Source: Halothiobacillus sp. (GTDB taxonomy: Bacteria; Pseudomonadota; Gammaproteobacteria; Halothiobacillales; Halothiobacillaceae). Taken from it: a stretch of DNA of 40,577 bases. Location: the NCBI GenBank assembly GCA_020061705.1, contig JAGUXT010000017.1, positions 1 to 40,577 on the forward strand. The letters are read 5' to 3'. The notes beneath the pieces are model-generated. The model searched no databases and had not been told where the DNA came from. It was given only the letters and a program-made list of their open reading frames with translations. A program made the position numbers and the translations under genes. Numbering within the stretch: the stretch's first letter is position 1; the number at the start of each line of letters is the position of its first letter. This document shows positions 12,174-31,846 of this stretch, piece after piece.

Positions 12174-12198
12174 GATGGACTCTGAAGCTAGGGCGAAT

Positions 12199-13422: not shown

Positions 13423-13525
13423 GCAGAAGTTCTCTACGGGGGGTGTGAATAAGATATTGAATAGCCTAGCAGAAAGCCCCACGCACTCGCCAGAGCGTGC
13501 CGTTGAGCTGGAGCACTATCTATAG

Positions 13526-14050: not shown

Positions 14051-14070
14051 TAGGAGAAAACCCGAAAACC
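14051..14070. other. candidate decayed att site (tRNA-Leu 3' end remnant)
   Basis: TAGGAGAAAACCCGAAAACC here aligns with TAGGAGAGGACTCGAACC in tRNA-Leu (31769-31786), with 15 matches and a 2-base insertion. It sits 78 bases after the shared terminator start; the equivalent distance at the tRNA is 75. That spacing makes chance less likely, but the match is imperfect and no clean direct repeat exists. Confidence 0.35.
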
Positions 14071-14105
14071 TAGATTTAATGCGGTCTTGAAGCATGTGTT
14101 TTGCC

Positions 14106-14138
14106 GATACCGCAGTCGATACCGTAAAGATACGGTAT
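14106..14138. repeat. GATACCG repeats resembling the integrase-proximal repeats
   Basis: The 23 bases at 14106-14128 match 31628-31650, just upstream of the integrase gene, at 20 of 23 positions. ATACCGT (14119-14125) and ACGGTAT (14132-14138) form an inverted pair. Such repeats could be integrase or excisionase arm sites at the left end of an island. Confidence 0.45.
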
Positions 14139-14229
14139 TTTGTTGCATTGGTGCAACAGGTTCTCGGTAAGGTTTCCATTTGGGGAATCGAATCACGGGC
14201 GAATATAGCCGCAATCGATACGGTGAACT

Positions 14230-16176
14230 CTTCTAAACCGCCCGTGCGGCGGTCAACGTGCCCCATGCCCCCCAGGTACGAGGCTAGAACTTCTAAACCG
14301 CCCGTGCGGCGGTCAACTTACCCCGAAGCCTGCGGACAGGGGCGCGTGTCTTCTAAACCGCCCGTGCGGCGGTCAACAACGGCTACGGTTTTGTGCGCCT
14401 GCCCCATGTCTTCTAAACCGCCCGTGCGGCGGTCAACGGCAAGACCATGAAATACAAAACCACACGCAACTTCTAAACCGCCCGTGCGGCGGTCAACTTG
14501 CATGCGACATTCAACCTTACATTTTTTGACTTCTAAACCGCCCGTGCGGCGGTCAACATGGCCGGGCTGATTGCGGCAGATGCGTGGCTCTTCTAAACCG
14601 CCCGTGCGGCGGTCAACGCCATATCCGATTCATCCATCACATCACGCATCTTCTAAACCGCCCGTGCGGCGGTCAACGACGATCAAGAAGGCTTATCTCC
14701 TCCTCTGTGCTTCTAAACCGCCCGTGCGGCGGCAACGTGTCGGCAATGGCGCGCGGGCTGTAGCCATCCTTCTAAACCGCCCGTGCGGCGGTCAACGCAT
14801 TGACTTGGCTGGCGTAAGCGTCGAACTCCTTCTAAACCGCCCGTGCGGCGGTCAACTAAGTTGCTGCGCCCTGAATGAGCTTGTGCTTCTTCTAAACCGC
14901 CCGTGCGGCGGTCAACGTACAGGCGGAACATGCGCGCCAGACGCTCTACTTCTAAACCGCCCGTGCGGCGGTCAACGCAATCTTGTCGCGCTCCATGGCG
15001 CGGATCTCCTTCTAAACCGCCCGTGCGGCGGTCAACGTATTTTTTCGCCGATGCGGGCAACCATGTAGCTTCTAAACCGCCCGTGCGGCGGTCAACATGA
15101 TGATTCCTGGTTCTGCTGTCGGTTCGTTCTTCTAAACCGCCCGTGCGGCGGTCAACGAAAAACCAAAGTCCAGCGTGTGTCCGCATTTCTTCTAAACCGC
15201 CCGTGCGGCGGTCAACCGGGCAAGAAACGCGCCAAACAGGACGTGACGCTTCTAAACCGCCCGTGCGGCGGTCAACCCTGCCACGGTTGCAGCAAGCCTG
15301 CCCCCGATCTTCTAAACCGCCCGTGCGGCGGTCAACGCGCTAAGCCCGACTTCGCGCTCGAAACATCGCTTCTAAACCGCCCGTGCGGCGGTCAACTCGA
15401 GCTGATTCACGCGGGGGTCGCGCAGCAGCTTCTAAACCGCCCGTGCGGCGGTCAACGCTTTGTCTGGAACGGCACCGCCACCTTTGAACTTCTAAACCGC
15501 CCGTGCGGCGGTCAACATGAGCCCCACTCAAATCATCAATGCCGTGATCTTCTAAACCGCCCGTGCGGCGGTCAACATCTCCAAATGCCCCGAATACTTG
15601 CGCACCGTCTTCTAAACCGCCCGTGCGGCGGTCAACGGAAAAGGACAGAGTTCCGCAAGGCAACTTGTCTTCTAAACCGCCCGTGCGGCGGTCAACTGCG
15701 TCAGGCGACCACGCCCCGTCTCCGGGTACTTCTAAACCGCCCGTGCGGCGGTCAACGACTTGATGAAGCAAGCCGCAAGCGTCATGGTCTTCTAAACCGC
15801 CCGTGCGGCGGTCAACGCACAGACGCTCACCGCGCCACAGCAAACACACTTCTAAACCGCCCGTGCGGCGGTCAACGCTTGGCAGCGGCAGCGTCGCCAT
15901 CGTAGGAACTTCTAAACCGCCCGTGCGGCGGTCAACAGTGCCAACCCCGCCGCATCACCCTCGTTTGTCTTCTAAACCGCCCGTGCGGCGGTCAACATGT
16001 TCACAGGAGTACACCACGCCTACATCTTCTTCTAAACCGCCCGTGCGGCGGTCAACAAGCCAACGGATACCCAGTAATCCTGCGATTACTTCTAAACCGC
16101 CCGTGCGGCGGTCAACTGCACGGCGGCGATGGCGACGGCCTCGGTCATCTTCTAAACCGCCCGTGCGGCGGTCAAC
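14230..16176 (-). CRISPR. type I-F CRISPR array, 33 repeats and 32 spacers
   Basis: 28-bp repeats alternate with 32-bp spacers at a strict 60-bp period. Read on the minus strand the repeat starts GTTGACC, has a CCGCC/GGCGG stem and ends TTTAGAAG, the pattern of type I-F repeats cut by Cas6f. All copies look identical except the one at 14710-14736, which lacks one base and is 27 bp. Every spacer is exactly 32 bp and I saw no duplicate. The leader and first spacer lie on the right, next to cas1. The leader-distal repeat at 14230 is not degenerate. Sixteen of the 32 spacers start with G on the plus strand. Confidence 0.99.
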
Positions 16177-16273
16177 TGTTGGATTCTATCCATTTTTTTA
16201 AAGAAAACAACGAATTAGAGCCAATAGCAGAACGCGATCTTCGTTTGATCTGCCATGCCTCAACCCATTGAAA
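16177..16273 (-). promoter_or_regulatory. CRISPR leader
   Basis: 97 bp of A/T-rich DNA between the cas1 stop and the first repeat, in the position of the leader that drives array transcription and marks the insertion end. It contains A/T runs next to the array and GATC-containing short repeats further away. The precise promoter is not clear. Confidence 0.75.
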
Positions 16274-17227
16274 CTAAACGCTTTTTCTTGCAGACTCTAC
16301 AAGGAAGCTCATAAGGAAGTCCAAAACTTTCAAGCTTTGTGCTAACTCAATCAGTTCGGCTCGAAATGCATTGTCCTTACTGGCCTTCTTGCCGTGCTTA
16401 AATGCAAGCGGCATCACAAGCCCGTCTTTGATGAGATCTGCAACGTCAAAAACCAGTGCGCCGCGTCGTGTTTTTCCGTGCAGTACAGGTAGTGCAAAGG
16501 GAATACCCAGTCCATGTAAGGCTGTTGCTGCGTAACCGTAAGCAATGTAGTTCCCATGATCGAGAAATGCATTGGCTTGATCTTCGGTGGTCGATTTTGA
16601 ACGCTTGCCCTCTTCTCGCGTAAAGTCCATGCCATGATGTTTTGCCAAAATGGCGTACAGCCTTTTCGCCCATACCGCCTCAGCAGCCAGAAGGTCGTTC
16701 GTGGTTGATCCACTATGTATAGCGCTCTCAAACGACTGGAGCTGGCTGTCGGGAATGACTAGCCCCTGGGCATCCCAACGTTCAAGTGTCCATTCCATGC
16801 GTGCATGAAGGAATGCTTTGGCAAGTGCCAAACGCTGTGTTTCGTCCAGCCATTTTTGCATCCATGCCTGCATGTACTCGGTGGGGCGATACTCGTCTTG
16901 GGGCGGCAAAAACGTGATGTCCATTCCCGCGAACAAGGGTGACCCCCCGCTGCCGCAGAAACCGACCATAACATTGGATTCGGCTAACTTGCGCATGGCT
17001 GCGTCGGTGATGGAGGTGCCTTTTCCAAGCAGGAGAAAGGCTGTGTTTTTGTCGGGGATATTGAACATTTTCTCAATGTTCGCGCCGGTGTCAGTGAGGT
17101 AGACCAGTCGATCATCCACTTGAATGACACGGGCGCGCTCCAGATAAAACACATTGGCTCGTTTTGATAGCATCACGGCGCGTGGACGTGGTGCTTTGAT
17201 ATGCACACCGTTTGCCGCGAGGTTCAT
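16274..17227 (-). CDS. cas1: CRISPR integrase Cas1, type I-F
   Basis: Metal-dependent integrase that inserts new spacers together with the Cas2 domain of Cas2-3. The 317-residue protein has the I-F features SKRANVFYLE, LLLGKGTSIT, VGFCGSGGSPLF and EYRPTEYMQAW. Likely metal ligands are E183 (LAAEA), H250 (VLHGKTRRG) and D264 (DVADLIKD). Its ATG overlaps the cas6f stop (ATGA), so it is the last gene of csy1-csy2-csy3-cas6f-cas1, next to the leader. In the usual I-F order cas1 comes first, followed by cas2-3. Confidence 0.97.
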   Translation of the reverse strand: MNLAANGVHIKAPRPRAVMLSKRANVFYLERARVIQVDDRLVYLTDTGANIEKMFNIPDKNTAFLLLGKGTSITDAAMRKLAESNVMVGFCGSGGSPLFAGMDITFLPPQDEYRPTEYMQAWMQKWLDETQRLALAKAFLHARMEWTLERWDAQGLVIPDSQLQSFESAIHSGSTTNDLLAAEAVWAKRLYAILAKHHGMDFTREEGKRSKSTTEDQANAFLDHGNYIAYGYAATALHGLGIPFALPVLHGKTRRGALVFDVADLIKDGLVMPLAFKHGKKASKDNAFRAELIELAQSLKVLDFLMSFLVESARKSV

Positions 17228-17796
17228 CCGAGTCTCGGTAATAAAAGTGGTGCTTCTTTGCGGGACAGGCCGTAGCTATCCGTCGATCCTGTGGGTTCTA
17301 TACGAGATGGATATATGTGCTGCTGGATCATGATCGAGAAGGATTGCTGCGTTGACGCGCTGCTCAGCAAAAAATAAGGCAAGTTGCGGGCCTCCTCCAG
17401 ACGTTTTGCGCGTAAACGTAGGCGTTTTTCTTGATGCTCCTCGCTTTTTCCACGACGTGCGGGAACACGATAACGCTGGTATTCAACCCACTCGCCTTCG
17501 TATTGCTCCGGGGTGCGACGAATACGACCCGTGATAACAAAGGGACTCAAACGCGTGTTTTGTTCAATTCGATCACTGGCGGTTTCAATTTCATCCCGAC
17601 TCTCCGAAAACAGGCGCAAGATGTGTCCGGGTGTTGGCGCATCTCCCATTTTCATTGCAGGGAATGCGAGTGCGTAACGATTGGGGTTTTCAGTGAACAC
17701 CGAATGCAGGATTTGCATGACCGCCGATGCAATCACTGGCACGGTGACCCCCGCCGCGCTACGCAGGGTGAGGTCGGCGTAGTAATCAGGCTGCAT
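17224..17796 (-). CDS. cas6f: CRISPR endoribonuclease Cas6f (Csy4)
   Basis: Cuts the pre-crRNA at the 3' base of the repeat hairpin and stays bound to the crRNA. I start it at ATG 17796, because MQPDYYADLTLR aligns with the family start; a longer frame from 17859 would overlap csy3 deeply. At 190 residues it has normal size. H31 (ILHSVF) corresponds to the family catalytic histidine and S148 (SSASTQQSF) to the catalytic serine. The C-terminal YGLS motif is present. It overlaps csy3 by 11 bp and cas1 by 4 bp. Confidence 0.95.
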   Translation of the reverse strand: MQPDYYADLTLRSAAGVTVPVIASAVMQILHSVFTENPNRYALAFPAMKMGDAPTPGHILRLFSESRDEIETASDRIEQNTRLSPFVITGRIRRTPEQYEGEWVEYQRYRVPARRGKSEEHQEKRLRLRAKRLEEARNLPYFLLSSASTQQSFSIMIQQHIYPSRIEPTGSTDSYGLSRKEAPLLLPRLG

Positions 17797-18880
17797 CTGT
17801 CGCGCCCTCCTTGTTTTTGGCGGTTTTTTCCGCTTTTTCGCTCTCGCTAAAAACACCACCGCGCATAAGGCTTGCGATCAGGAACATACCGTCGGCGGTA
17901 TCCGGGTTGATATGATTGATACGACGCATCAGATCAAATGCAGAAAACTTTTTGTCATTTCCTTCTCGACGGAAAAACATCTGTGCATCAAGGCTTGCGC
18001 CATTGGGTTCAACCGGTATCGGTTTGGTGTGTTCACCAAAGGCGGGATACCAGGTGTCGATGGTGCGCAGTGCATTACCTATTTTCTGATCACGTAATGC
18101 CGCCTGCCCCATGACACGAATATCGGAAAAATTCAGTAAGGCACCACCTTCGCGATTAGCTTCGGATGGGTGGCCGACTTTGTATAACGGGCGGGCAAAT
18201 CCGCTGGGTTTTTTTTCAACGTAGTTTTGGGACGGGAATAATTCAACAGCGCCCGTGAAGCCGAACAGGATATGCGCCTCAACATCTAATGCGGTCGTCG
18301 TCACACCACGCATGTTTTCAGCAATGGCTTTCCCCAAGGTGATTTCATCTTGGCTGTAGGCATCAAAATGCTGCAATGAGATAGAAAGAGCATTGTCGCT
18401 TTGCGCCAGCGGTTCTTGATGCGCATACACATGAATCATGATGCGTTCACCCAAAATCCGGTTACGCCACAGCCAACGACCATTGAGGATATTGCGCGCA
18501 TAACGAAGTGCAACTTCTTCAAGACCTGCACTGGTTTGCGCTTTTTCAATGAAGGCTTGCAGGGATTGGCGCAAGGTTTGTTGCTCTGCGCCAGCACAGG
18601 CAAATAGGGTGTCGTTCAAAGATAATGTTCGGAGGCTGAATCTGACCTTTACGCCACAGGCTTTGCTGTCCGATTTTGCTGATTCGGTGACCTGGATATT
18701 GGAAATTTCGGTTTTAGAATCGTTATTGATGTTTTGTGTTCCATGAATGCCGTGACGCACAACATCGACCGGTCTTTCCAGGCCGTCATTATCGACACTG
18801 AAAAACAGGCCATCACTGATGACAAAACCGCGTTGAAAACTCAATACTCCGGGTAGCTTTTTGAAAGTAACGTCGCTCAT
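17786..18880 (-). CDS. csy3: CRISPR Cascade backbone Cas7f (Csy3)
   Basis: Backbone subunit that polymerises along the crRNA in the type I-F surveillance complex. The 364-residue protein starts at ATG 18880 with SDVTFKKLPGVLSFQRG, a typical Csy3 opening. Family motifs such as IMVHVYA-like (IMIHVYA), FTGAVELFPSQ and the helical end (MFLIASLMRGG) are present, then a charged tail. It overlaps csy2 by 4 bp (ATGA) and cas6f by 11 bp. Confidence 0.95.
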   Translation of the reverse strand: MSDVTFKKLPGVLSFQRGFVISDGLFFSVDNDGLERPVDVVRHGIHGTQNINNDSKTEISNIQVTESAKSDSKACGVKVRFSLRTLSLNDTLFACAGAEQQTLRQSLQAFIEKAQTSAGLEEVALRYARNILNGRWLWRNRILGERIMIHVYAHQEPLAQSDNALSISLQHFDAYSQDEITLGKAIAENMRGVTTTALDVEAHILFGFTGAVELFPSQNYVEKKPSGFARPLYKVGHPSEANREGGALLNFSDIRVMGQAALRDQKIGNALRTIDTWYPAFGEHTKPIPVEPNGASLDAQMFFRREGNDKKFSAFDLMRRINHINPDTADGMFLIASLMRGGVFSESEKAEKTAKNKEGATDAA

Positions 18881-19731
18881 GCTGATGGCTCCTGTTGGAT
18901 GGTCGATAAGGTGGCTGTGTGGGTGATAAATACGTCGTCGCGCGGCCAATGACCGCGCCAAAAACAAGGGAATTGCGCCGTAGCGGCTAGGCCTTGCGCA
19001 GTAATGTGTCGAATGCTTTGATAGGCAACCAGTCCTACCAGCGGCTCGGCAAACGCATGGGGCGCGTTTTCGCGTGCATTATTGCGTGCTTCAAAAGGGG
19101 TCAGTGTGGCGTAACCCAGAACCGCTGGACTCAGCCAGCGGCGCGACTCGCCTTCGGGAGCTGAATCATTCACCCGAGATAACAAGGTTTCCAGTCGTCC
19201 CTGATCGGTCGAAACCAGCTCATGGCTTTGATCGGTGATGAAAAAACCATGGTGAATGGCCTTGAGGCTCGCCTCAAACGACTCGTGAATGCTTGGCTTG
19301 CCATGATGCGTTATCAGGCCGCCAGCAATCCGGCGCTGTGACAAGGCCGTTTTCACTTGGTGCAGGGAAGGACAGGTGTCAGCAAACAACAGAAGCAGGC
19401 TAATCTCAAGATGCATGGAGGCAGTCGGTTGCAGCGAGAGTGCGTGTTTGTTGTGTTTGCTGTAATCATTTTTGTCAATATAGGTGGCTGCCCTGAATTG
19501 ATGCGGATAATCACCGTAGTCCTTGAGTAGGTCGCTGGGTAGGTCGCTTTCGGCCAAAAACTGCGCATCGTGGTGAATGATTGCCACGCCAGCGGGTTGA
19601 ATACCAATATCTCGACCGAAGGCATGTGCGAACAGAGTGCAGGCAAATACAGGGGTCATGGTGATCGCCCAAGCTGTGGCCAAAGCATTAGCGCGTTGCA
19701 CTTCAATATGTGGAATGAGCAGGTAGCGCAT
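18877..19731 (-). CDS. csy2: CRISPR Cascade subunit Cas5f (Csy2)
   Basis: Binds the 5' handle of the crRNA together with Cas8f. The 284-residue protein opens with a family-like beta strand (YLLIPHIEVQRANALATAW) and has the later PAVLGYATLTPFEAR and PLVGLVAYQSIRH segments. It is shorter than the roughly 325 residues of the Pseudomonas aeruginosa protein. It sits 3 bp after csy1 and overlaps csy3. Confidence 0.92.
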   Translation of the reverse strand: MRYLLIPHIEVQRANALATAWAITMTPVFACTLFAHAFGRDIGIQPAGVAIIHHDAQFLAESDLPSDLLKDYGDYPHQFRAATYIDKNDYSKHNKHALSLQPTASMHLEISLLLLFADTCPSLHQVKTALSQRRIAGGLITHHGKPSIHESFEASLKAIHHGFFITDQSHELVSTDQGRLETLLSRVNDSAPEGESRRWLSPAVLGYATLTPFEARNNARENAPHAFAEPLVGLVAYQSIRHITAQGLAATAQFPCFWRGHWPRDDVFITHTATLSTIQQEPSA

Positions 19732-19734
19732 GAC

Positions 19735-20778
19735 TCAAAGCTCCGTGATAAGTTGATGCAAGCGCCGACGCTCTTCCGGCGAAAAACTGAGCCGAATCGT
19801 TGTGCCATCTGGATTTGCGCCAAAACGAAAACTATCAAGCGCATTCAATAACCATTGCGCACGTCGGTCTGCATGGTTTCTTGTGGGTGACAGAAAGGCT
19901 TCCAGCAAAGCGTCCTGCCTTGGCTCAAGAAATTCATCAGCGTAGTCATGTATAGAACGCTCAGCCTTTTGCGCCTGATTCCGCACGGCATCCAGCATGG
20001 GGGAGATCAGAGAAGACTCTTGCGCCCTGAGCGCCAAGGTCATGTTTTTATCCTGCACGTCTTTTTGCCAGATGCCATATCGACGCACCATGTCGTAGGG
20101 AAGGCTTGGACGGAAGCCGTTGTAATGGAGACTAAAGGCGGCACGCAGCTTGGGATTCAGCTTGGGTACGTTGACGAACACCAACGGCCTGCTCATCGAA
20201 CGGACACGACCTCCTACGTTTTGCGGATTACTGCCGCCCACAGAAAAACTGTTGACATGGCGATCAAAGCCTATTGTAGGTGACTGATTATCTTTGATTT
20301 TTCTAGCATCTTGCCGTTTGCGTGATACCGCGCTGATATGCTCACTCAAGCCCGCTGATGCCAAGGGTGTAATGGCAACATAACCTGCCGCTCCCTGAGG
20401 GATTAGAAGCTGTCGTAAACGAGGGCTGACCGTATGCAAGCCTTGTTCAGCATGCTGTGTAATGATTGCAAGGTACTTGTCTGCAACCGAATTTTTTGCA
20501 TCAGGCGTATCACTCTCCAGTGCATCAATTTCACCAATCAACTGACGCACTCGTTTGAAATAAGTAGCGTCTTTGCCCGCATTCACCAGGTAATCGAGGC
20601 CAACCTGCTTACCCTCTGCCATGAGTGTGCGGACGCTTACATAAGGCAGGTCGAGTACCTGCTCGGCACCCAGTCGAACGCCGCCGGGTCTGACGTTGCT
20701 GTTGATGGTTTTGCATGAAAAATGAAACAGGTTTTCATCCATCCACTGCAACAAGATCTGATGTTCTGCTGATTCCAT
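19735..20778 (-). CDS. csy1: CRISPR Cascade large subunit Cas8f (Csy1), compact form
   Basis: Large subunit that recognises the PAM and helps open target DNA. I start it at ATG 20778: GGAG lies 6 bases upstream and ESAEHQILLQWMDENL fits the N-terminal helix. A frame from 20853 would run into the divergent control region. Family stretches include NVGGRVRSMSRPLVFVNVP, LVTPLA-like YVAITPLASAGLSEHI and the C-terminal FGANPDGTTIRLSFSPEER. At 347 residues it is clearly shorter than the ~430 of well-studied I-F1 proteins. It is the first gene of the five-gene interference operon. Confidence 0.9.
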   Translation of the reverse strand: MESAEHQILLQWMDENLFHFSCKTINSNVRPGGVRLGAEQVLDLPYVSVRTLMAEGKQVGLDYLVNAGKDATYFKRVRQLIGEIDALESDTPDAKNSVADKYLAIITQHAEQGLHTVSPRLRQLLIPQGAAGYVAITPLASAGLSEHISAVSRKRQDARKIKDNQSPTIGFDRHVNSFSVGGSNPQNVGGRVRSMSRPLVFVNVPKLNPKLRAAFSLHYNGFRPSLPYDMVRRYGIWQKDVQDKNMTLALRAQESSLISPMLDAVRNQAQKAERSIHDYADEFLEPRQDALLEAFLSPTRNHADRRAQWLLNALDSFRFGANPDGTTIRLSFSPEERRRLHQLITEL

Positions 20779-20916
20779 GCGCGGCTCCGACTCAGGTGTT
20801 GATGTGGATTGAACAGTAAACCGACACCTGTCAGAATGCAAAAATATCTCCAAAAGAAGGAATCAAATTGATTTGTTTATTTTCATATGAACTATCATGA
20901 ATCAAGTTTATTTGTT
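20779..20916. promoter_or_regulatory. divergent CRISPR-Cas control region with paired operator-like repeats
   Basis: The 108 bp between csy1 and the divergent regulator gene, and the first bases of that gene, hold two direct copies of AATCAAnTTnATTTGTT (20861-20877 and 20900-20916), 39 bp apart. The first contains a perfect palindrome AATCAA-A-TTGATT; the second is imperfect and lies just inside the regulator gene. The layout fits sites for the adjacent WYL regulator controlling both transcripts. TTGATT and TATCAT (20893-20898) could be weak promoter elements for the rightward unit, which has no ribosome-binding site and may be leaderless. Confidence 0.55.
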
Positions 20917-21705
20917 CTAAGGCGCTGTGTATGGGCGGGGCGAACCACGCGCGCAGATCTGATGCAGGCTTTTGGCATCCCCTCTGCCACAGCGACACGC
21001 GCCCTCAGTTATGCAGTGAGTCACTTTCCTCTCACGCTCGGGCAAAAACCCAAGTGGGTAGAAAGCATTCCCCACGCAGCCATCCCCACACCCGCCTCGG
21101 CAGGTGTCTTGCTCAGGCTGCTAGGCGAAAACCCTTATCAGTTTGCTGTCACCGGGCTTAAACCGAGCGAGTTAAATGTTGTCATCACGCGGCTAAAACA
21201 CGATGTCGCTCTGAGTGTAGACAATGCTGTGTTGACACTTCTTTTACGTGCCACCATCAACAGTACACGGATTGATATTCGATATGTCGGTCTGCGCCTT
21301 GGTGAGTCCGCGCGTTGGCGTTCGGTTGTTCCCGTTGCCCTGAATTATCTACAAAACCAATGGCGACTCATGGCGCACGATCTCGAAACCACTGATTTTC
21401 CTCTGAAGTCTTTCGTTATTCCGCGCATTCTGGACGCACAGCTTACGACACAGAAACGACCTCGCGGCCTGAGGCTGCAAACAGGCGATATAGCTCAACG
21501 GGTTTATAAAATAAGGCTTAATAGCCGAATGACCGTTGACCAACAAATCGCCATTCGACGTGAGCTTGGAATCAATCAGAACGACGAAATCACGCTTGCA
21601 GATAATGTATTGTTTGATTTCAGAAAAACTTATATGGAAAACGAGATCAAGGCGGATGCAAACATTGTCTGGCCATTGGTTGTCGAACTGCAAAGAGCGG
21701 GGTAG
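20887..21705 (+). CDS. WYL-domain transcriptional regulator (BrxR/CapW-like) of the cas locus
   Basis: A 272-residue protein with an N-terminal winged helix-turn-helix (about 5-60, with TTRADLMQAFGIPSATATRA as likely recognition region) and a WYL domain in the middle (about 125-190). The C-terminal domain (about 200-270) is like the WCX dimerisation region. The WYL signature reads WRLMAHD, followed by LKSFVIPRI, close to the BrxR/CapW type of defence-island repressor. It is divergent from csy1 and only 3 bp upstream of cas2-3. I infer autorepression and control of both cas units, relieved by an unknown ligand. ATG 20887 has no ribosome-binding site. Confidence 0.8.
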   Translation: MNYHESSLFVLRRCVWAGRTTRADLMQAFGIPSATATRALSYAVSHFPLTLGQKPKWVESIPHAAIPTPASAGVLLRLLGENPYQFAVTGLKPSELNVVITRLKHDVALSVDNAVLTLLLRATINSTRIDIRYVGLRLGESARWRSVVPVALNYLQNQWRLMAHDLETTDFPLKSFVIPRILDAQLTTQKRPRGLRLQTGDIAQRVYKIRLNSRMTVDQQIAIRRELGINQNDEITLADNVLFDFRKTYMENEIKADANIVWPLVVELQRAG

Positions 21706-21708
21706 GTC

Positions 21709-24700
21709 ATGCACATCACACTCGTCTCACAATGTGAAAAAAAAGCTCTTAAGCGCAGCCGAGCGCTTATCGACCGTTACGCGGTACGTATTTCAGATCG
21801 AAGCTGGATAACACCCATCACGACTGAGGCATTAGACGATCTGCGCATGGCTTTGCGCCAAACGGCAACTCGCCAAACCGCCGTAGCCTGTTACATCAAC
21901 CAAGGCAAAAACTCAATGAAATTGGCTTGGACAGTCGGGCGATCTGACTTTTTTGGTGAACACGGTGCATTGGCTGTGGGTACACGACAACGCCACAGAA
22001 CTGAGCCGCCTTTATGGCTTCGTGTTGCTGCACTCGTGGCCAAGGCCGCTGGGTTAGTTCATGACTTTGGTAAGGGCTCCATTCATTTTCAGGAAAAACT
22101 CAAATCGACATCGATTATTAAAGACAAAACCCGTCACGAATGGATTTCCATGAAGCTGTATCAAGCGATGAGATCGTTGAATCAATTTTCATGGGATGCG
22201 GCGTGGACATATGTCCGAGAAAGTCCTGATCGACATGCCATGCCATTCATGAATGGGAAAGAATTTTATCCTATACACTCCGCATTTGATGCCATTGACT
22301 TCAGCGTACTTACCCACCATAGATTACTTGCGCCATCCGCAAACAAGAAAAGTGCCTGCGGCGACAGGCCTGAAGAAATAGAACATACACACCGCGAAGG
22401 GGGCGCAGGTGATGAATTGGACATATTCACCGAAGCAGCTCCTCTGACTGCCAAAATTTTAGATATATTGGCGAAAACCACGGAGCGCATCGCGCAAATT
22501 CACTTGGATCGGCCAAGTGACCCCTTGTTTTTTCGCGGAATAACCCTAATCGCTCGTGCGGCTTTGATTTTAGCTGATCATGAGGTTTCGGCATTGACAA
22601 CATCTTGCAAAAACCAAAAGAACAACAGCGATTTATATGCCAATACATGCCGAATTAATGAAAAATCGCAACTGAATCAAAAGCTCGATTGGCATCTTGA
22701 GAATGTTTCTCAGCGTGCTCAGGAGATTATTCATTACTTCGATAACCATGAGCTACCTACACTTTGTCCTCAAACACGTGCAAACATCGATGCCGACTCT
22801 GGGCAAGGAAGATACCAGTGGCAAGACAAAGCCGCTTCCCATCTGCGTGGTTTACAGGAACAAAATCAACACCCCACATTGATATTCAATCTTGCCGGAA
22901 CAGGCGCAGGGAAAACGCGTATGAATGTACGCGCATTAGCCGCTCTGCGCGGGGAGGATGAACCCTTACGCATTGCCGCCGGTTTCAATTTGCGCACACT
23001 CACCCTGCAAACACATCGGGCATTTAAAACGCAACTCGGTATGAGTGATGACGAAGTTGCCTGTGTCATTGGTGATCGCTTTGCTCGCGCCATGTATGAG
23101 GACAACAGCAACACCGATGAAAACAACATAAACATACTTGAATATGACTCCGTTGGGCAGCCTGTGGATTATCCGCAATGGTTGCAAACCATGGCAAAGG
23201 GGGATCCCGGGCTTTTGAACCTGATCGGTGCGCCTGTTCTCGTTTCAACCATGGATTACCTGGTCAATGCCGGCGACCCCACCAAACAAGGTCATCACGC
23301 CCACGCACTTCTGCGTATTGCAAGTAGCGACCTCATTCTGGACGAGGTAGATAGTTACGACCCTATAGCTCTGGTTGCTGTTGTTCGCATCGTACAGATG
23401 GCCGGTTTATTCGGAAGGCACGTCGTCGCATCAAGCGCAACTCTTAGTGAACCCGTAGCTGAAGCGATTTTCAAGGCCTATCAATCGGGCGTTGCCATGT
23501 ACGCAGCTCTCAGACTCGCCGATATATCGCCCCGACTGAGTTTTATTGATCATCAGTTATATCCCTCAAGCTTTATCACCCATTCTTCTGGCGAATTTAT
23601 TGAGAAATACGGCGAGAGATTGAATGAATTAGTGATGCACACACAGCAGTTGCCCGCTTATCGTGCATGCAATTACCAACGTATGAATGTCCCGACCAAT
23701 CGTGAAGACGCATTTAATGTGCTTGCAGAGTCCGTACAAACGGCCTCGATGGAGCTTCATGCAAATCAGTCATGGGCGTATGGCACAACAGGCAAGCATG
23801 TATCCATTGGATTGATTCGAGTGGCATCTGTAAAAACCTGCGTTGAATTGGCATCCAGCCTTATTCAAACGATGCCTAACGCGCATGTGACTGCATATCA
23901 CGCGGTTGACCTTCGTTTGCGTCGTTGGCGCAAGGAAGAGTCACTTGATCGCTTGCTCTATCGGAATCCTGATGACGGTTCTGACGGCAATAGCGCTTTA
24001 CTCAACGATACCGACATTCAAGATCGCGTCGCACGTACGCTAGGTAATGATGTCATGTTCATTGTCGTTGCCACACCGGTTGAAGAGGTGGGACGTGATC
24101 ATGATTTCGACTGGGCCATCATTGAGCCATCCAGTGTTCAATCTATTGTTCAGCTTGCTGGTCGCGTGAATCGACATCGGCTTGTTCATGTTTCAAAACC
24201 CAATGTCAGTATTTTGCAATTGAATCGTAGAGCGCTACAAGGTGAAGAGCGCGCCTTTCATCGTCCGGGCAATGAGGTTGGCGATGCGCTTTATAATTCT
24301 CACGATGCCATTAAATTACTTGGTGATGAATTAAAGCAAATTGATGCGTCCTTGCGCTTTGGTGATACCCATGGCAAATGTATCTTTGCCGTGCTGGATG
24401 ATAAAAGTATTCAGCAACGCATGAATCAACCCATGGGGACTGTATTAGGTGAAAGTAACAGGCCGCTGACGTGGACGACGCAGTGTCATTATGAGCTTTA
24501 TCCGTTAAGGAATAATAGCGAGCGTAGACGTTTTAGATTTTCAAAATCCAAGACTGATAAGATCGTTGTTGAAGAATTTTTCGCCCACATGGCAAACAAG
24601 AAAACCCCTCAATGGAGGGAGACTGATTGCGTCAGTTTGACTTCCAAAACGATGAAAGAAAGTTACTGGCTAGCGCCGACCATTGAAGACTTAATAAGTG

Positions 24701-24798
24701 AGCAAAAAAATTATATTCATGATTCACATCATTTAATGGAGTTTGAGGTTGTTGATGTTGAACGGGTTTCATTCCATGCTTTCTTTGGTGGGTATTAG
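21709..24798 (+). CDS. cas2-3: CRISPR Cas2-Cas3 fusion, type I-F
   Basis: 1029-residue fusion that joins adaptation to target degradation. Residues about 1-95 form the Cas2 domain that associates with Cas1. A HD nuclease follows (H118-D119 in GLVHDFGKGSIHF). The SF2 helicase has Walker A GTGAGKT (K402), the DEVD box (545-548), SSATLSEP and motif VI QLAGRVNRHR (815-824). All key residues are intact, so shredding and helicase activity are expected. It is coupled to the WYL gene 3 bp upstream and separated from cas1, which is on the opposite strand, an unusual split for a I-F system. Confidence 0.96.
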   Translation: MHITLVSQCEKKALKRSRALIDRYAVRISDRSWITPITTEALDDLRMALRQTATRQTAVACYINQGKNSMKLAWTVGRSDFFGEHGALAVGTRQRHRTEPPLWLRVAALVAKAAGLVHDFGKGSIHFQEKLKSTSIIKDKTRHEWISMKLYQAMRSLNQFSWDAAWTYVRESPDRHAMPFMNGKEFYPIHSAFDAIDFSVLTHHRLLAPSANKKSACGDRPEEIEHTHREGGAGDELDIFTEAAPLTAKILDILAKTTERIAQIHLDRPSDPLFFRGITLIARAALILADHEVSALTTSCKNQKNNSDLYANTCRINEKSQLNQKLDWHLENVSQRAQEIIHYFDNHELPTLCPQTRANIDADSGQGRYQWQDKAASHLRGLQEQNQHPTLIFNLAGTGAGKTRMNVRALAALRGEDEPLRIAAGFNLRTLTLQTHRAFKTQLGMSDDEVACVIGDRFARAMYEDNSNTDENNINILEYDSVGQPVDYPQWLQTMAKGDPGLLNLIGAPVLVSTMDYLVNAGDPTKQGHHAHALLRIASSDLILDEVDSYDPIALVAVVRIVQMAGLFGRHVVASSATLSEPVAEAIFKAYQSGVAMYAALRLADISPRLSFIDHQLYPSSFITHSSGEFIEKYGERLNELVMHTQQLPAYRACNYQRMNVPTNREDAFNVLAESVQTASMELHANQSWAYGTTGKHVSIGLIRVASVKTCVELASSLIQTMPNAHVTAYHAVDLRLRRWRKEESLDRLLYRNPDDGSDGNSALLNDTDIQDRVARTLGNDVMFIVVATPVEEVGRDHDFDWAIIEPSSVQSIVQLAGRVNRHRLVHVSKPNVSILQLNRRALQGEERAFHRPGNEVGDALYNSHDAIKLLGDELKQIDASLRFGDTHGKCIFAVLDDKSIQQRMNQPMGTVLGESNRPLTWTTQCHYELYPLRNNSERRRFRFSKSKTDKIVVEEFFAHMANKKTPQWRETDCVSLTSKTMKESYWLAPTIEDLISEQKNYIHDSHHLMEFEVVDVERVSFHAFFGGY

Positions 24799-25527
24799 AT
24801 TCACTGTTTAATGGTGAAATCAATTTGTCATTTATGGTTTTTAGTGGTCTTGGTTAGAAAATCCCCATAGGATGTTGCAAAAATTGATTGCCGCCCAATT
24901 AGCCCCCAAAGCCAAGCACCAGCCCGCAGGATAGTCAGTCGCCATGGATTAAACGAGGGGGTGAGCCCGCCTACACCCCCCCCATCCCATCCGCAGGGGG
25001 TGAAAGAGGGAAAGAAAATCCAAATCAAGGCAGCCTACTTTGTTGGCTGATTTATTGGTGAGCTTGGTTTTTTTTGGACACCAAAGCAGAAGCGTTTACA
25101 GACTTTTTAAAGTGTACCCCTTGCGCTAGGGGTGTCCTGATGCTTGCTTCTTGCTCACCCTGTGTGGTAGGCGGTTTTGGTGTGGGTTATCCCGAAATCC
25201 GGTGAAGAGCAAGCAATGTTTTCGTCTAACAAAATCCACTCGCGTAGATTCTTGTTAGACGAAACATCGCCCCTCTGCCCTCCCTTGCGGTCGGTTGAGT
25301 GGCTTTGCTTGGCAGGGGTGAACCCCTGCACCCCGATTTTCTCCCTCGGTCGAAAATCAAATCCAACAGCCGAACAGCCTGCATGAGTATGCGCCTGTTC
25401 TTTCCCTCCTCCGCCTGCGGGTGGGGGGGTGTGTCATCCTCCCCTCATCCTCAACCATCAGGGCGAGGGGAGGGGCAGAGTCTCCCTGGTTTTATGTTGA
25501 ATTGGGTTAGGCCAGTTAATCTGAGCG
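24799..25527. other. non-coding spacer between CRISPR-Cas and mobilisation modules
   Basis: 729 bp without a convincing gene; short frames on both strands have low-complexity Pro/Gly/Trp-rich translations. It contains C-rich repeats (about 24956-25006), a hairpin ACCCCT-tgcgct-AGGGGT (25117-25134), and a strong inverted repeat at 25216-25267. Composition changes sharply here, suggesting a module junction. Confidence 0.6.
25216..25267. repeat. 20-bp inverted repeat with attC-like core boxes
   Basis: ATGTTTTCGTCTAACAAAAT (25216-25235) pairs with the stretch ending at 25267 with about two differences, around a 10-12-base loop. The arms contain GTCTAAC and GTTAGAC, which fit the integron R'' (RYYYAAC) and R' (GTTRRRY) consensus. 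The core-to-core span of about 38 bp is shorter than usual attC sites and no internal L boxes are clear. No T-run follows, so a terminator is unlikely. A transfer origin or another recombination site is an alternative. Confidence 0.55.
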
Positions 25528-25854
25528 TTATCTTGGTAGTGCTAGATGAAGTTTGATTGCATCCTCGACGGCTAGCATGTCGGCCTTTGTCAGCGTGCCA
25601 AGTTGACTCTTGAGCCGTGATTTGTCCGCCGCCATGATCTGATCGCTCATAGCCTTGCTGCTTCGGTCGCCTACGGTTACAACCGCTTCACCGGGATACA
25701 GTTTTCCGGTGTTGCTGGTGAGGGGTACAACGACAACACGTGACAGGTTTCGATTGGCGGCATCGTTGCTCACAATGACGGCAGGGCGCGTCTTACGGAC
25801 TTCGCTTCCTACTGCCGGATCAAACTCAACCCACCAGACATCACCGCGCTGCAT
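25528..25854 (-). CDS. MazF/PemK-family toxin
   Basis: A 108-residue endoribonuclease toxin of the MazF/PemK family. I start it at ATG 25854, because MQRGDVWWVEFDPAVGSE is the typical opening; a longer frame is an artefact. Family motifs KTRPAVIVSNDAANR, VVPLTSNTGKLYPGE and ADKSRL are intact. It overlaps the upstream antitoxin gene by 14 bp. Such pairs commonly stabilise plasmids and integrative elements, which fits the relaxase and integrase next door. Confidence 0.92.
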   Translation of the reverse strand: MQRGDVWWVEFDPAVGSEVRKTRPAVIVSNDAANRNLSRVVVVPLTSNTGKLYPGEAVVTVGDRSSKAMSDQIMAADKSRLKSQLGTLTKADMLAVEDAIKLHLALPR

Positions 25855-26071
25855 CGGCCATGTCTCCGGCAAGGGCGTTACACCATTCCAGGGCTTCGGC
25901 TTCGCGCTCTTGATCGGCGGCCATTGCGCGGTAGCCCTCATCGAGTGAGGTGTCTACAACATGCGGGCGCAGCAAGTCTTCAATGAATTGGCTCATACGG
26001 CGCTTGCCTACGCGTCGGTACAAGCCTTCATAAACAGCTTCATCCAGCGTAATGGTCATGCGCTTGTGCAT
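25841..26071 (-). CDS. ribbon-helix-helix antitoxin
   Basis: A 76-residue partner of the MazF-type toxin. The first 30 residues (RMTITLDEAVYEGLYRRVG) form a ribbon-helix-helix DNA-binding motif; the acidic C-terminal part probably wraps the toxin. ATG 26071 is chosen over a longer upstream frame because the motif starts directly after it. It probably represses its own promoter through the palindrome at 26094-26106. Confidence 0.88.
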   Translation of the reverse strand: MHKRMTITLDEAVYEGLYRRVGKRRMSQFIEDLLRPHVVDTSLDEGYRAMAADQEREAEALEWCNALAGDMADAAR

Positions 26072-26093
26072 TTGAGTTTCTCTGTGTGCGTTG

Positions 26094-26106
26094 TGCGTTA
26101 TACGCA
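26094..26106. promoter_or_regulatory. palindromic operator of the toxin-antitoxin pair
   Basis: TGCGT-TAT-ACGCA is a perfect 5+3+5 palindrome 23 bases upstream of the antitoxin start. Read on the minus strand it contains TATAAC, a possible -10 element, so a bound antitoxin would block the promoter. The remaining DNA up to 26256 shows no gene. Confidence 0.5.
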
Positions 26107-26256
26107 TTTTAGTACATGGACGAACGGCTGCCCTACTTTTCCTGAAAGTCCAAAGTTGCAAAAAAGTGGGGCAACCAGGGCAAGCCCTGACAGAATGCGG
26201 GTTTGCACTGCCCTAGTTTTGATTGTCAAGATAGGACAGTAGGGCACCTAGGCAGA

Positions 26257-28407
26257 CTATCGGCTTATGCCATGATAATGGCGTGAAGCCAGAGCATCCG
26301 CCTTGATGTGCGCCTGAACATCAGGCTGCATGAGCGCCGCATGGACAGTCCTGTTGGCATAGTCCGCTTCATGGCCGGGTTTACGGGCTTCGATACTTGG
26401 AGAGTTCTCCAGAATCGCCCGTTGCACAATCTCAACCGAATAGCCTTGTTTCAAAAGTGATTTGGCAACCATGAAGTCAAGCCGGGATAAGTCTGGGACG
26501 GGGTATTTATCCAGTATTTGCCGAGCTTGATGCTTGTACTCCTGCCCAGCATCCCGCCCGTAGCGTGCTTGATCGGGCTCGCGTTGTATTGCATCCAGCC
26601 GCTCCACTGATTCAGCTTGCTGGGCTTCGTTACTCAATCCCTGCACCACTTCGGCCAACAATGCAGGGGCAGCACTGGCTATTTTACCGGGACACTCATG
26701 TGCAAGGACATAAGGTGAACGACCATCCCGCTCATGCTTCGGTTTACGGTTGGTGAAGCCTGCCAGCCTGCCAAAATGACTCGCATCGACGCTGTTTTTG
26801 TCGCCCTCATATTCCTTGGCAAAGTGCAGCGCAATGGCTTTTCTAACATCCTTGGGCAGTGGCGTGTCACTGATTTTTACCCATGCCTGATAATTATTGG
26901 GGCTGGTTTCAATCAGGGCGGCTGGGTTAAATCTATCGTGCCGCATCCTATGGATTGAATCCGCATTCAAGTCATCAACAATAATTAATCCAGATTCATG
27001 GCCTGGCTTAATGTAGATGTCTTCGCCTTTGGCGTTTTGCCTTTTCAGCCAGCTTAGCGCATCAAGTATTTGAAGTTTTGACCACCGTCGATTCATGAAC
27101 TTGCCCGATTTTGCATTCCTCATTCCAATTTCATAGAAATCGCAATCCATTGCCATTATCTGTTTTTCGACGGCGGCAAGGGTGCGGTCTGGTTTGGAGG
27201 CTGGGGTGGTTGTTGGACGAGGTACGGAAGCAGGATTTCTGCCACTTGTGCTGGGTCGAGGTTCACTGAGTTGTTGGTAAGGGGTGGCGGGAACGCCCAG
27301 CGCAGCAATCCGCTGACGAGCAGACTCGAAGTCACCCCGATCACCAGGGCGATCCCCCAGACCTTGAGGTTCTGGGCTTGAGTCGCTTTTTGAATCTGGT
27401 TGGCCGCTTGGCGAGCCAACTTGACTTGATCCGCCAATACCTTGGATTGGGCTTCGGCCTTGTTCTGGATGGATTCCAGTGTTGATCTCGCTTCGTCCGT
27501 GAGATTTGTCAGGCTCAACGCCAGAGGCTCGATCAAGAACGCTAATTCCTCCGCTGACCTGGCATTCGTTGTTCGCAATGTCTCGATCTGGGCAGTCAGT
27601 GATTCGATCCTGTTCGCGTTTGATGCACTGGCTAAGTCTTTCAAGGTCTCTGTCTTTTTCATAATGTATATCCGTCTTCGCTAGCCCTAAGGGGCTGTAT
27701 TTTTTTCCAAGGTCGCTGGCTTTCATGGTGACACCATCAATCCGGTAACTAAGTCCCGACAATTCAGTGTCGTTTTTCCGTAGGCGCGGAATGACCTCCA
27801 AACCTGCCAGCTCGCAGGTATCGACCAGTTCACGCATGGTTTTTGCAGTTGGCAGAATCGAGTCAAGAAGATGCTGCATCTGCATTTTTGTGGATGGCAG
27901 GCCAGTGCGGATTGCACCCTCAATTTCCCCTTTGGTTGGGGCGCGTTTTTGAGATTCCCTTGAGGGAATAACCTGTTGTAATCCAAGTTCCTTTTCAAGT
28001 TTTCGCAGTGCGTTTTCCAGTTTTTGAAAGTCATGACTTGAATCAACCGCGCTTCCATTCATGCGAATCCTGTTTGTGACCACATGGATATGCTCATGCT
28101 CGGTGTCGTGGTGCTTAAAAATCACGAATTGATTATCCGTAAAGCCTAGTGATCTCATCGACACATCAACAATGTGCCGCCATTCGTCATCTGATAAATG
28201 CTCGCCTAGGGCTAGACTGATACTGAAGTGCTCGACAGCAACCCCTAGGCTAGGGCGGAGGCGGCGGACAGCCCCGAACTCGCTTGAAAGCTCGCGGGGA
28301 GTGGAACCAGCCATATTTCCGCCGATGATTTGACTTTTCTTTTTAGGGTCGAAGTTGTACGCAAGCACCCCCCGGAAGCTCGTGCCTCTCTTTATTTTTC
28401 CGATCAT
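26257..28407 (-). CDS. MOBP-type relaxase fused to a RepB-like primase domain
   Basis: A 716-residue mobilisation protein. The N-terminal relaxase domain (about 1-250) has the likely nicking tyrosine Y17 (VLAYNFD) and the histidine motif H100-DTE-H104-E-H106-I-H108. A Ser/Gly/Pro-rich linker (about 250-410) follows. The C-terminal part resembles the RepB-type primase (NRRWSKLQILDALSWLKRQN, GLIIVDDLN, NNYQAWVKIS, HFGRLAGFTNRKPK). This arrangement recalls the MobA-RepB fusion of RSF1010-like plasmids. The start overlaps mobC by 4 bp. The linker DNA also encodes a second protein in another frame. Confidence 0.92.
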   Translation of the reverse strand: MIGKIKRGTSFRGVLAYNFDPKKKSQIIGGNMAGSTPRELSSEFGAVRRLRPSLGVAVEHFSISLALGEHLSDDEWRHIVDVSMRSLGFTDNQFVIFKHHDTEHEHIHVVTNRIRMNGSAVDSSHDFQKLENALRKLEKELGLQQVIPSRESQKRAPTKGEIEGAIRTGLPSTKMQMQHLLDSILPTAKTMRELVDTCELAGLEVIPRLRKNDTELSGLSYRIDGVTMKASDLGKKYSPLGLAKTDIHYEKDRDLERLSQCIKREQDRITDCPDRDIANNECQVSGGISVLDRASGVEPDKSHGRSEINTGIHPEQGRSPIQGIGGSSQVGSPSGQPDSKSDSSPEPQGLGDRPGDRGDFESARQRIAALGVPATPYQQLSEPRPSTSGRNPASVPRPTTTPASKPDRTLAAVEKQIMAMDCDFYEIGMRNAKSGKFMNRRWSKLQILDALSWLKRQNAKGEDIYIKPGHESGLIIVDDLNADSIHRMRHDRFNPAALIETSPNNYQAWVKISDTPLPKDVRKAIALHFAKEYEGDKNSVDASHFGRLAGFTNRKPKHERDGRSPYVLAHECPGKIASAAPALLAEVVQGLSNEAQQAESVERLDAIQREPDQARYGRDAGQEYKHQARQILDKYPVPDLSRLDFMVAKSLLKQGYSVEIVQRAILENSPSIEARKPGHEADYANRTVHAALMQPDVQAHIKADALASRHYHGISR
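27156..27662 (-). CDS. MobB-like protein nested inside the relaxase gene
   Basis: A 168-residue frame lying completely inside the relaxase gene, on the same strand but in another frame. It has a long coiled-coil region (about 15-95), one membrane helix (about 102-126, VWGIALVIGVTSSLLVSGLL) and a Pro-rich tail. RSF1010 encodes MobB in the same manner inside mobA, where it stabilises the relaxosome and contacts the transfer apparatus. The relaxase linker over this stretch is low complexity, as expected if the DNA is constrained by the other frame. The ribosome-binding site is weak. Confidence 0.7.
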   Translation of the reverse strand: MKKTETLKDLASASNANRIESLTAQIETLRTTNARSAEELAFLIEPLALSLTNLTDEARSTLESIQNKAEAQSKVLADQVKLARQAANQIQKATQAQNLKVWGIALVIGVTSSLLVSGLLRWAFPPPLTNNSVNLDPAQVAEILLPYLVQQPPQPPNQTAPLPPSKNR

Positions 28408-28778
28408 GACTCACCCCTTCCAGTATTCATCAGGTCAAGCCGCACAGACTGGAGGAGACCATGTAACTCACGGATTTCATTCATTACGCCCACGGGCTGA
28501 CCGCCCGAGTTTGCGATTTTTAGAAGCTGGTTGATGTTGCTCGCCAACCTGCCAAGGTTTCCGTAGGCCTCAAGATTGATAGGAGGGGGAGGCGGTGGGC
28601 GCACTGGGGTTTGCAGAGCGACTGATCTGAAATATTCGCTAAGTGTGACCCCCATTTTTTCGGCATTTTTCTTGACTCGGTCACGTTCTGAATGGGTGAA
28701 TCGAGCACCTAGGTAGGCATTCAAGATCGTGTCAGAGTTGGCGTTGGGGCGTCCGGTACGTATTGTCTTGGGCATGAT
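28404..28778 (-). CDS. mobC: mobilisation auxiliary protein MobC
   Basis: A 123-residue protein of the MobC/ribbon-helix-helix type that helps melt the transfer origin for the relaxase. The N-terminal half has RFTHSERDRVKKNAEKMGVTLSEYFR-like residues typical of the fold, and the C-terminal part the NLGRLASNINQLLKIANSG motif of the family. A Pro run (59-65) separates them. It overlaps the relaxase start by 4 bp. I could not locate the transfer origin. The end given includes the few bases up to the next gene boundary. Confidence 0.88.
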   Translation of the reverse strand: MMPKTIRTGRPNANSDTILNAYLGARFTHSERDRVKKNAEKMGVTLSEYFRSVALQTPVRPPPPPPINLEAYGNLGRLASNINQLLKIANSGGQPVGVMNEIRELHGLLQSVRLDLMNTGRGES

Positions 28779-29689
28779 TACCCCCCCCTAGATGCGCGCG
28801 CGTAAGCACTTGAATTATCGACAGATCGAGGCCGCACAGGCACATGCGCAGGCGCACCCTCAACAGCAGGCTCAACAGCAGGCTCAACAGCAGGCTCAAC
28901 AGCAGGCTCAACAGCAGGCTCAACAGCAGGCTCAACAGCAGGCTCAACAGCAGGCTCAACAGGCTCTCCGTATGAAAATAGGCGATCCCTATATAACGTG
29001 TGAAGACGCACCCTACCCATGGGTGTGGTTATCTTGGCGGCATTCTGTGAGTCATGGGTGAACAAAATTTCTGATTTTCGGAGTGCTTTTGAGATTTTAC
29101 GAAGTGTCCAATCCGGGGCAGATTGCTGCAATGATTCTTTTGTGAAGCTTATTAGATCTGATTTTTTAGAAAAGAACCCCAATCGATCTCCACGGAATTT
29201 TTCATCACCAGCTATATCTTCAAATTGAGTTGATTTTTTAATGTAGAACTCTCGAATTGATTGAATAATCAATAAGTCATCTTCTGTATACGAATGAACT
29301 CTGCCCTGAGGATTAAATTCACTCAAAAAATCAATCAATAAAGGATATTTTTTTGGAATTAGCGAAAGACCAAGATTGGCAAGTGAGGCTGCAACTCGTC
29401 GTGGCTTATCAATTAAGTCCCCTGCCTTTATGAAATGTCTTTTGACATTTTTGTTTTTATCAACAAACTCAATATGCATTCCCCATTCTTCATCCGCATC
29501 TGACTGAGCCGTTACCCAAACTGGTGCATTTGTGATTTTGACAGGTTCCGGATCGGTATTCTTATCGGTCGCATCCGGCAGTTTGAATACGCCACACTCT
29601 GATACTTGCCATGCGTGAGGCACTTCCATTGGATTCCAATGGTGCGGCAAACCAGCAGAAGTCGCGCCGCTGTCCTGAGAGTTATCCAT
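28778..29689 (-). CDS. shortened DUF927-type protein with Pro-Ala-Val-Glu repeats
   Basis: A 303-residue protein. I start it at ATG 29689, 2 bases after the AlpA stop. Residues about 30-125 look like the N-terminal part of DUF927 proteins (GVFKLPD, WGMHIEFVD, KRHFIKAGDL, LANLGLSLIP). The later stretch up to ~265 resembles the C-terminal domain of such proteins (TTPMGRVRLHTLYRDRLF). The helicase-like centre is missing, so an internal deletion is inferred. The C-terminal tail has eight exact PAVE units from a 12-bp tandem repeat. Function unknown. Confidence 0.6.
   Translation of the reverse strand: MDNSQDSGATSAGLPHHWNPMEVPHAWQVSECGVFKLPDATDKNTDPEPVKITNAPVWVTAQSDADEEWGMHIEFVDKNKNVKRHFIKAGDLIDKPRRVAASLANLGLSLIPKKYPLLIDFLSEFNPQGRVHSYTEDDLLIIQSIREFYIKKSTQFEDIAGDEKFRGDRLGFFSKKSDLISFTKESLQQSAPDWTLRKISKALRKSEILFTHDSQNAAKITTPMGRVRLHTLYRDRLFSYGEPVEPAVEPAVEPAVEPAVEPAVEPAVEPAVEPAVEGAPAHVPVRPRSVDNSSAYARASRGG
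28859..28954. repeat. 12-bp tandem repeat, eight exact copies
   Basis: CTCAACAGCAGG occurs eight times in a row, then a partial copy to 28963. On the minus strand it encodes Pro-Ala-Val-Glu in the tail of the DUF927-type protein. Exact identity suggests recent slippage expansion. Confidence 0.95.
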
Positions 29690-29942
29690 GTCGAGCTGAC
29701 ACATTTGGCCATGTTGCAGCGGCTTGGCGGGCGGCACGAGTGTCGGCGGTGTCTGCAACAGGCAGGCTTTCTAACCAAGCTTCAACGTCTGAGCTGCGCC
29801 AACCTATGGCTCGACTTCCGATTTTTACGGGTGGTGGGAAACTGCCATTTGCAACCCACCTGAAAATCGTATTTTTTGACGCGGAAGTTAATGCCAAGAT
29901 TTCCGCCTGGCGCATGATTCGTTTGTTGGGTGGGTTTTGCAT
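29682..29942 (-). CDS. AlpA-family excisionase/regulator
   Basis: An 86-residue protein with a MerR-like winged helix: IMRQAEILALTSASKNTIFRW (9-29), then the wing GSFPPPVKIGSRAIGWRSSDVEAWLES. AlpA proteins regulate or assist excision by P4-type integrases, and such an integrase gene is upstream. The stop overlaps the next gene region by only 2 bases' distance, so the pair is probably co-translated. Confidence 0.9.
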   Translation of the reverse strand: MQNPPNKRIMRQAEILALTSASKNTIFRWVANGSFPPPVKIGSRAIGWRSSDVEAWLESLPVADTADTRAARQAAATWPNVSARHG

Positions 29943-30291
29943 TCTCTGATCATCCTCTCAAGGGTAGGTATTATAAGTAACTTGATTCACCCAGCTTTGG
30001 AAGCTCGCGGGGTTTAATTTGCCTAAAAATCTAATACCCAAGATAACCTTTAAAAGCCCTCTGTCAACTCCCATCAAACCGCCTAAATAGACCATTATTT
30101 CATTATGGTCTTTTGGTTTTATCGTAAACGCCCCCGTTACATTTTATAATTTATGTGTTTATTTTATCTAAATGCGCTCTAAAAAATATTATTTTATTGC
30201 TGGCGTGTCCATGGTAGTTTTTGACTATGGGGTGGTCGGAAAACAAAAAAAACCGCACATGGCGGGCTTGTTTTGATTTTTTTAAAAAAAA
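29943..30291. other. A/T-rich gap with two terminator-like hairpins
   Basis: 349 bp without a gene between the AlpA and integrase genes. It contains a hairpin AGACCAT/ATGGTCT with a T-rich end on the plus strand (30089-30120). A second, the integrase terminator, is at 30243-30272. The rest is A/T-rich and probably carries the AlpA promoter. Confidence 0.55.
30243..30272 (-). terminator. terminator of the integrase gene
   Basis: On the minus strand CCCGCC-ATGT-GCGG is followed by eight T, about 20 bases after the integrase stop. Confidence 0.75.
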
Positions 30292-31593: not shown

Positions 31594-31612
31594 CTTGCGC
31601 CCCTCACTCTGA

Positions 31613-31761: not shown

Positions 31762-31846
<85 letters not shown>

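Follow-up and report, generated by a model that had tools for sequence, protein, structure and literature searches.

Organisation of the type I-F locus

The window, i.e. the whole 40,577-nt stretch of Halothiobacillus sp. DNA that was analysed, encodes a type I-F CRISPR-Cas locus with a gene for a WYL-domain regulator at its centre. The regulator gene (20887-21705, + strand, 272 aa) lies between csy1/cas8f (19735-20778, - strand; PADLOC Cas8f, 1.1e-40) and cas2-3 (21709-24798, + strand), the latter encoding a 1029-aa Cas3f with an N-terminal Cas2 domain (TIGR02562, E 8e-214; PF21384 Cas2 domain). A first-pass annotation made from the sequence had described the regulator as divergent from csy1 and coupled to cas2-3, and both were confirmed, with only 3 nt separating the regulator stop at 21705 from the cas2-3 ATG at 21709. 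The same annotation had started the gene at 20861, which is incorrect: an in-frame TGA at 20869 precludes an earlier start than the ATG at 20887, and position 20861 thus belongs to a repeat and not to the gene.

On the - strand, csy1 is accompanied by csy2/cas5f (18877-19731; PADLOC 2.8e-36), csy3/cas7f (17786-18967 for the ORF as listed, the true start being probably downstream; PADLOC 3.9e-74), csy4/cas6f (17224-17859; PADLOC 4.4e-24) and cas1f (16274-17227; PADLOC 4e-114). A CRISPR array (14230-16176), assigned to the - strand from its I-F repeat, contains 33 repeats, 32 of them identical, and 32 spacers of 31-32 nt. While Csy1 and Csy2 are divergent and fall under the NCBIfam cut-offs, the locus has the cas1f gene, the Cas2-Cas3 fusion, csy1-4 and the 28-nt repeats with 32-nt spacers that characterise type I-F, and judged by gene content the system looks complete. 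Variant I-F4 systems have an HNH domain fused to Cas8f and usually lack Cas3, and I-F3 systems carry Tn7-like transposition genes. Here cas2-3 is intact, Csy1 gave no HNH match and transposition genes were absent among the ORFs scanned, placing the locus in neither variant. A search for self-targeting spacers within the window, allowing up to 6 mismatches, found none.

The entire I-F locus is carried on a mobilizable element of ~17.7 kb (approximate extent 14052-31761), integrated at tRNA-Leu(cag) (31762-31846). This follows from an empty site in the sister genome G004, in which the left flank (to ~14051) is joined directly to the tRNA-Leu 3' end; a degenerate copy of the tRNA-Leu end is found at ~14052. 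The element encodes an integrase (30292-31593), a MobA/RepB-type relaxase-primase (26257-28407) and a NikA-like protein (28404-28775). A 19-bp repeat (13973/31694) was rejected as the attachment site, since the empty site in G004 puts the insertion at the tRNA-Leu end. A DUF927-like ORF of the element contains 8.7 copies of a perfect 12-bp repeat, CTCAACAGCAGG (28859-28962). Adjoining the element are two adjacent patatin-like phospholipase genes (10968-12275 and 12199-13482), apparently tandem duplicates, and past the tRNA a sequence of ~110 bp (31890-32028) is a small dispersed repeat with many copies in this and sister genomes.

Relationship of the regulator to CapW and BrxR

The regulator consists of a wHTH domain (residues ~1-60), a linker, a WYL domain (113-187) and a shortened WCX domain (~204-272). 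Pfam detected only the WYL domain (PF13280, E 1.3e-6, residues 115-185), and a single-sequence phmmer search reached CapW at E 0.039. A profile built from 19 orthologues, described below, matched the PDB sequences of CapW 9c5g (1e-17), S. maltophilia CapW (2e-15) and Acinetobacter BrxR (9.5e-15). The AlphaFold (AF2) model of the regulator (pLDDT 90.2) contained the WYL fold, and its Foldseek matches were headed by ssDNA-bound CapW, followed by other CapW and BrxR structures and then by PafBC and DriD. Whole-chain VIA comparison gave Z scores of 13.4 for BrxR and 12.9 for ssDNA-bound CapW, the large rmsd of ~14 A arising because the matching domains are placed differently, and the wHTH-WYL-WCX architecture of the BrxR/CapW family was evident from both the AF2 model and VIA.

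The ligand pocket was compared using the residues given for S. maltophilia CapW (PMC9122588). Y145, W170, F185 and R189 of CapW are kept as Y133, W159, F176 and R180, and R183 is replaced by K174, a position occupied by K or R in 19/19 orthologues; the set Y145, R183, F185 and R189 is thus represented by Y133, K174, F176 and R180. In contrast, S147, R169 and H171 of CapW correspond to G135, Q158 and R160. The WYL/BrxR-like identity initially proposed for the protein is supported by its profile matches and predicted fold, each pointing to CapW and BrxR, and by the retained pocket residues. It does not extend to the BrxR family sensu Picton et al. 2022, which was delimited by BLASTP hits to pEFER BrxR with E < 1e-5 among 13.5 million database proteins: the single-pair match of the regulator to pEFER BrxR (E 4e-4, 31% identity over only 62 residues) would lie far above 1e-5 in a database of that size, and the regulator falls in a separate clade.

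Like CapW, a repressor associated with CBASS, which is its best profile and fold match, the regulator is encoded directly upstream of a defence operon. Unlike CapW, it adjoins a CRISPR nuclease gene, has a shorter C-terminal extension and belongs to a clade of its own. It shares domain order and predicted fold with the BrxR proteins of pEFER and Acinetobacter, which differ in having a longer C-terminal extension, and its clade is dedicated to one Cas gene. CRISPR loci with WYL genes have been described for types I-D and VI-D and for Serratia I-E* (PMC9981886; PMC4012209), and a count of BrxR homologues in the neighbourhood of CRISPR systems has been published (PMC9122601). Among these, Sll7009, a WYL repressor of the Synechocystis I-D system, resembles the window protein in being an HTH-WYL protein at a CRISPR locus, and the Serratia I-E* WYL gene is likewise situated upstream of cas3, but both belong to other subtypes.

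Conservation of the regulator between csy1 and cas2-3

The head-to-head form of the I-F locus, with cas1-csy4-csy3-csy2-csy1 in one direction and cas2-3 in the other, was widespread among relatives of Cas2-3. Where the csy1/cas2-3 junction of such loci was present in the sequence, a WYL orthologue was found between the two genes, on the cas2-3 strand, in 19 of 54 cases, the remaining 35 being without the gene. Among 50 loci with another or undetermined gene order only L092, a locus truncated at its contig end, had a member of the clade. The regulator was thus present in 20 distantly related CRISPR loci. Wherever the spacing was measured, the cas2-3 start lay -10 to +11 nt from the WYL stop, with several candidate starts in L103, and in L104 the WYL gene spans two frames, reflecting a frameshift or a sequencing error. 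The hosts represent at least three phyla, including Nitrospirota, one Neomarinimicrobiota genome and many Pseudomonadota, in addition to one viral-collection contig, with the proviso that MAG contigs among them may be misbinned.

All orthologues grouped in one clade, whose support was 100/100 when BrxR and further WYL proteins were included, and a single clade was again obtained when they were set against 41 other WYL regulators. Distances among the WYL proteins correlated more strongly with those of Cas2-3 (Mantel r 0.78) than with those of Csy1 (0.55) or Csy3 (0.57), with 0/5000 permutations as high. Presence of the gene was clustered on the Cas2-3 tree (9 changes vs 18.4 when shuffled); early presence followed by several losses is plausible, the count of changes being unable to separate gain from loss. 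When two partly overlapping sets of 369 and 398 genomes were searched by profile, only the window protein and that of G197 scored above 100 bits, the next match having 96, and both are encoded at csy1/WYL/cas2-3 loci. These two scores are inflated because both sequences are in the profile, but the tree with the 41 other regulators independently placed the next-best matches outside the clade. Scanning genome_contigs and viral_contigs with the regulator sequence alone detected no relatives, nor did a two-sequence WYL alignment in viral_contigs, and the orthologues came to light only via the Cas2-3 relatives. In a literature search we found no description of a dedicated WYL clade between csy1 and cas2-3 of type I-F, although unread work or supplements may contain one. 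What seems new, judged from the gene orders compared, is a distinct WYL clade fixed at this position, recurrent rather than one-off.

Other arrangements were seen among the I-F loci. In loci of canonical order, a co-directional YafY-like WYL gene is located beside cas1 (L045:6704-7672, L046:9235-10209, L118:639-1628 and L130:3485-4444), showing that type I-F has recruited WYL regulators separately here. BrxR-like WYL genes outside the clade also adjoin I-F cas1, being divergent from it in L121 (3582-4448) and L123 (4925-5779) and found as well in L181, L217 and L221. Nine head-to-head loci (L054, L098, L100, L102, L103, L106, L107, L132 and L139) showed a Cas3 match only from residue ~97-110 and no cas1 detected in the operon; some are on plasmids, and L103, L132 and L139 have the WYL gene of the clade. 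The short matches suggest loss of the Cas2 domain in what looks like an interference-only variant. On one Acinetobacter plasmid a CRISPR array occupies the WYL slot between csy1 and cas2-3 (L038:11565-13230), and on another the gap is filled by a small KilAC-domain gene that may encode a regulator as well (L040:13278-13595).

Candidate operator repeats at the regulator start codon

Two 18-bp direct repeats, 16/18 identical and 39 bp apart from start to start, flank the start codon of the regulator and are regarded as candidate operators. Repeat 1, GAATCAAATTGATTTGTT (20860-20877, + strand), ends 9 nt 5' of the start codon, while repeat 2, GAATCAAGTTTATTTGTT (20899-20916, + strand), coincides with codons 5-10. 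A comparable pair arose in 0/3000 dinucleotide shuffles of 20779-20930 and in 4/3000 of 20700-21000. With the CRISPR array and a minisatellite excluded, the window contains just one further pair of this kind. Across the 2.27-Mb genome, the only two exact sites for the repeat pattern were repeats 1 and 2 themselves, other matches carrying 2 mismatches. The direct repeats noted in the first-pass annotation are thus real and beyond chance. Their assignment to a shared control region holds for repeat 1, which is intergenic, but that region would extend partly into the gene, since repeat 2 is regulator coding sequence. As to the palindromic nature claimed for one of them, repeat 1 does contain a perfect 13-bp palindrome, AATCAAATTGATT, but the best palindrome of the AT-rich control stretch was no better than chance (p 0.44); when a two-fold symmetric site of ~19-27 bp near the promoter was sought, the direct repeats were significant and palindromes were not. 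The sites of BrxR, in comparison, have 10-5-10 and 11-5-11 geometry.

A possible, weak sigma-70 promoter for WYL-cas2-3 (TTGAAC-17-CAGAAT, 20809-20837, + strand) scored 9.1, whereas random 200-nt stretches had a 95th percentile of 8.5; a stricter scan gave no promoter, so that the two scans disagree. If this promoter is real, it would be closely followed by repeat 1, placed between promoter and gene like the R-BOX of pEFER BrxR (PMC9122601). Among the orthologues, no common operator motif stood clearly above shuffles, the yield being just AT-rich words, and the candidate operator therefore rests on one genome. Conserved palindromes were at shuffle level in most orthologue loci. One word, TTTTGCATTCTGwCA, occurs in the window, in L057 and, with one mismatch, in L099, but was dropped as its strand in the window is opposite to that in the other two. 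BrxR sites are known to diverge (PMC9122589), which fits the lack of a family-wide motif.

Proposed role of the regulator in cas2-3 expression

With fold, family, position, operon coupling, conservation, common ancestry and co-divergence with Cas2-3 all established by computation, we consider it probable, at roughly 60%, that this BrxR/CapW-like protein controls the cas2-3 operon as an autorepressor released by ssDNA; position, coupling and family all point to autorepression. Most likely, a dimer of the regulator would occupy the candidate operator repeats on either side of the regulator start codon, repressing the transcript shared by the regulator and Cas2-3. The regulator would be released once its basic WYL pocket takes up a ligand, for which ssDNA arising from infection or damage is the likeliest candidate, and the nuclease level could then be raised when needed. 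In the passage of PMC13373217 citing Blankenchip and Corbett 2024, CapW/BrxR is described as repressing until ssDNA is bound, and by analogy with CapW the ligand is probably ssDNA here too; the ligand- or damage-responsive control predicted in the first-pass annotation would likewise be carried over from CapW/BrxR. We infer that the repeats act as operator, that the outcome is repression rather than activation and that cas2-3 is controlled selectively. The earlier claim that the nuclease is the most tightly controlled component receives indirect support from the coupling of WYL to cas2-3 throughout the members measured, the single clade and the co-divergence. Against autorepression stand the lack of an operator motif common to the orthologues, the site geometry unlike that of BrxR, the disagreement of the promoter scans, the three pocket replacements, the 35 of 54 loci without the gene and the fact that DriD and PafBC are activators.

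This last point bears on an opposite mode of action, in which ssDNA bound by the WYL domain turns on cas2-3, and perhaps csy1. DriD and PafBC, which are ssDNA-dependent activators (PMC11804915, PMC12340889) of damage-response genes, share the wHTH-WYL-WCX layout and are among the structural matches of the regulator. They are weaker matches, the regulator being nearer to the repressors CapW and BrxR in both sequence and fold, and repeats that straddle a start codon would be odd for an activator site; activation is thus unlikely. The head-to-head placing of csy1 and WYL-cas2-3, fixed in the clade, would also suit a regulator that sets the two oppositely from the shared region, in keeping with the switch between Cascade and Cas2-3 initially envisaged. 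Such a switch was not shown: the repeats are both located towards cas2-3, at least ~80 bp away from csy1, nothing ties them to a csy1 promoter and the csy1 promoter call is itself weak. We regard such two-way control as improbable, and think that csy1 is affected less than cas2-3.

The strict coupling and the closer co-divergence with Cas2-3 than with Csy1 could alternatively mean that the WYL protein has Cas2-3 itself, or nucleic acid, as its target instead of transcription. A precedent is the accessory protein WYL1, described as modulating Cas13d where PMC9122588 cites it. The intact wHTH domain and the repeats at the start of the regulator gene speak against such a partner role, to which we give slightly less credence still. 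Finally, the I-F locus resides on an integrated element with a relaxase and an integrase, and the protein could be a regulator of transfer genes lying incidentally beside cas2-3. The conserved coupling, with clade members adjoining cas2-3 in many unrelated genomes, makes such a passenger very improbable.

Returning to ssDNA-released autorepression, the retention of a predicted sensor family at that spot in 20 loci makes it probable that the nuclease is held in check until the cell detects a threat. A further, speculative extension, which we regard as doubtful, is that interference is licensed by damage: the surveillance complex would be made independently, with the nuclease held back by an ssDNA-reading repressor. 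Enzymes of the Cas3 type unwind their target DNA and degrade it, so the inducer would come from the first cuts, or else from phage DNA in replication, and Cas2-3 would rise further, giving a self-amplifying and self-limiting CRISPR response. If true, this could protect a new host at the first entry of the mobile element.

The cas2-3 nuclease is the step of the pathway most dangerous to the host, and a distinct WYL clade appears to be tied to its gene, providing a sequence signature by which regulated I-F loci can be found. If the proposed control is confirmed, adaptive immunity shares a trigger with the innate defences BREX and CBASS, and the limits on CRISPR self-damage, notably when mobile elements enter new hosts, would become directly testable.
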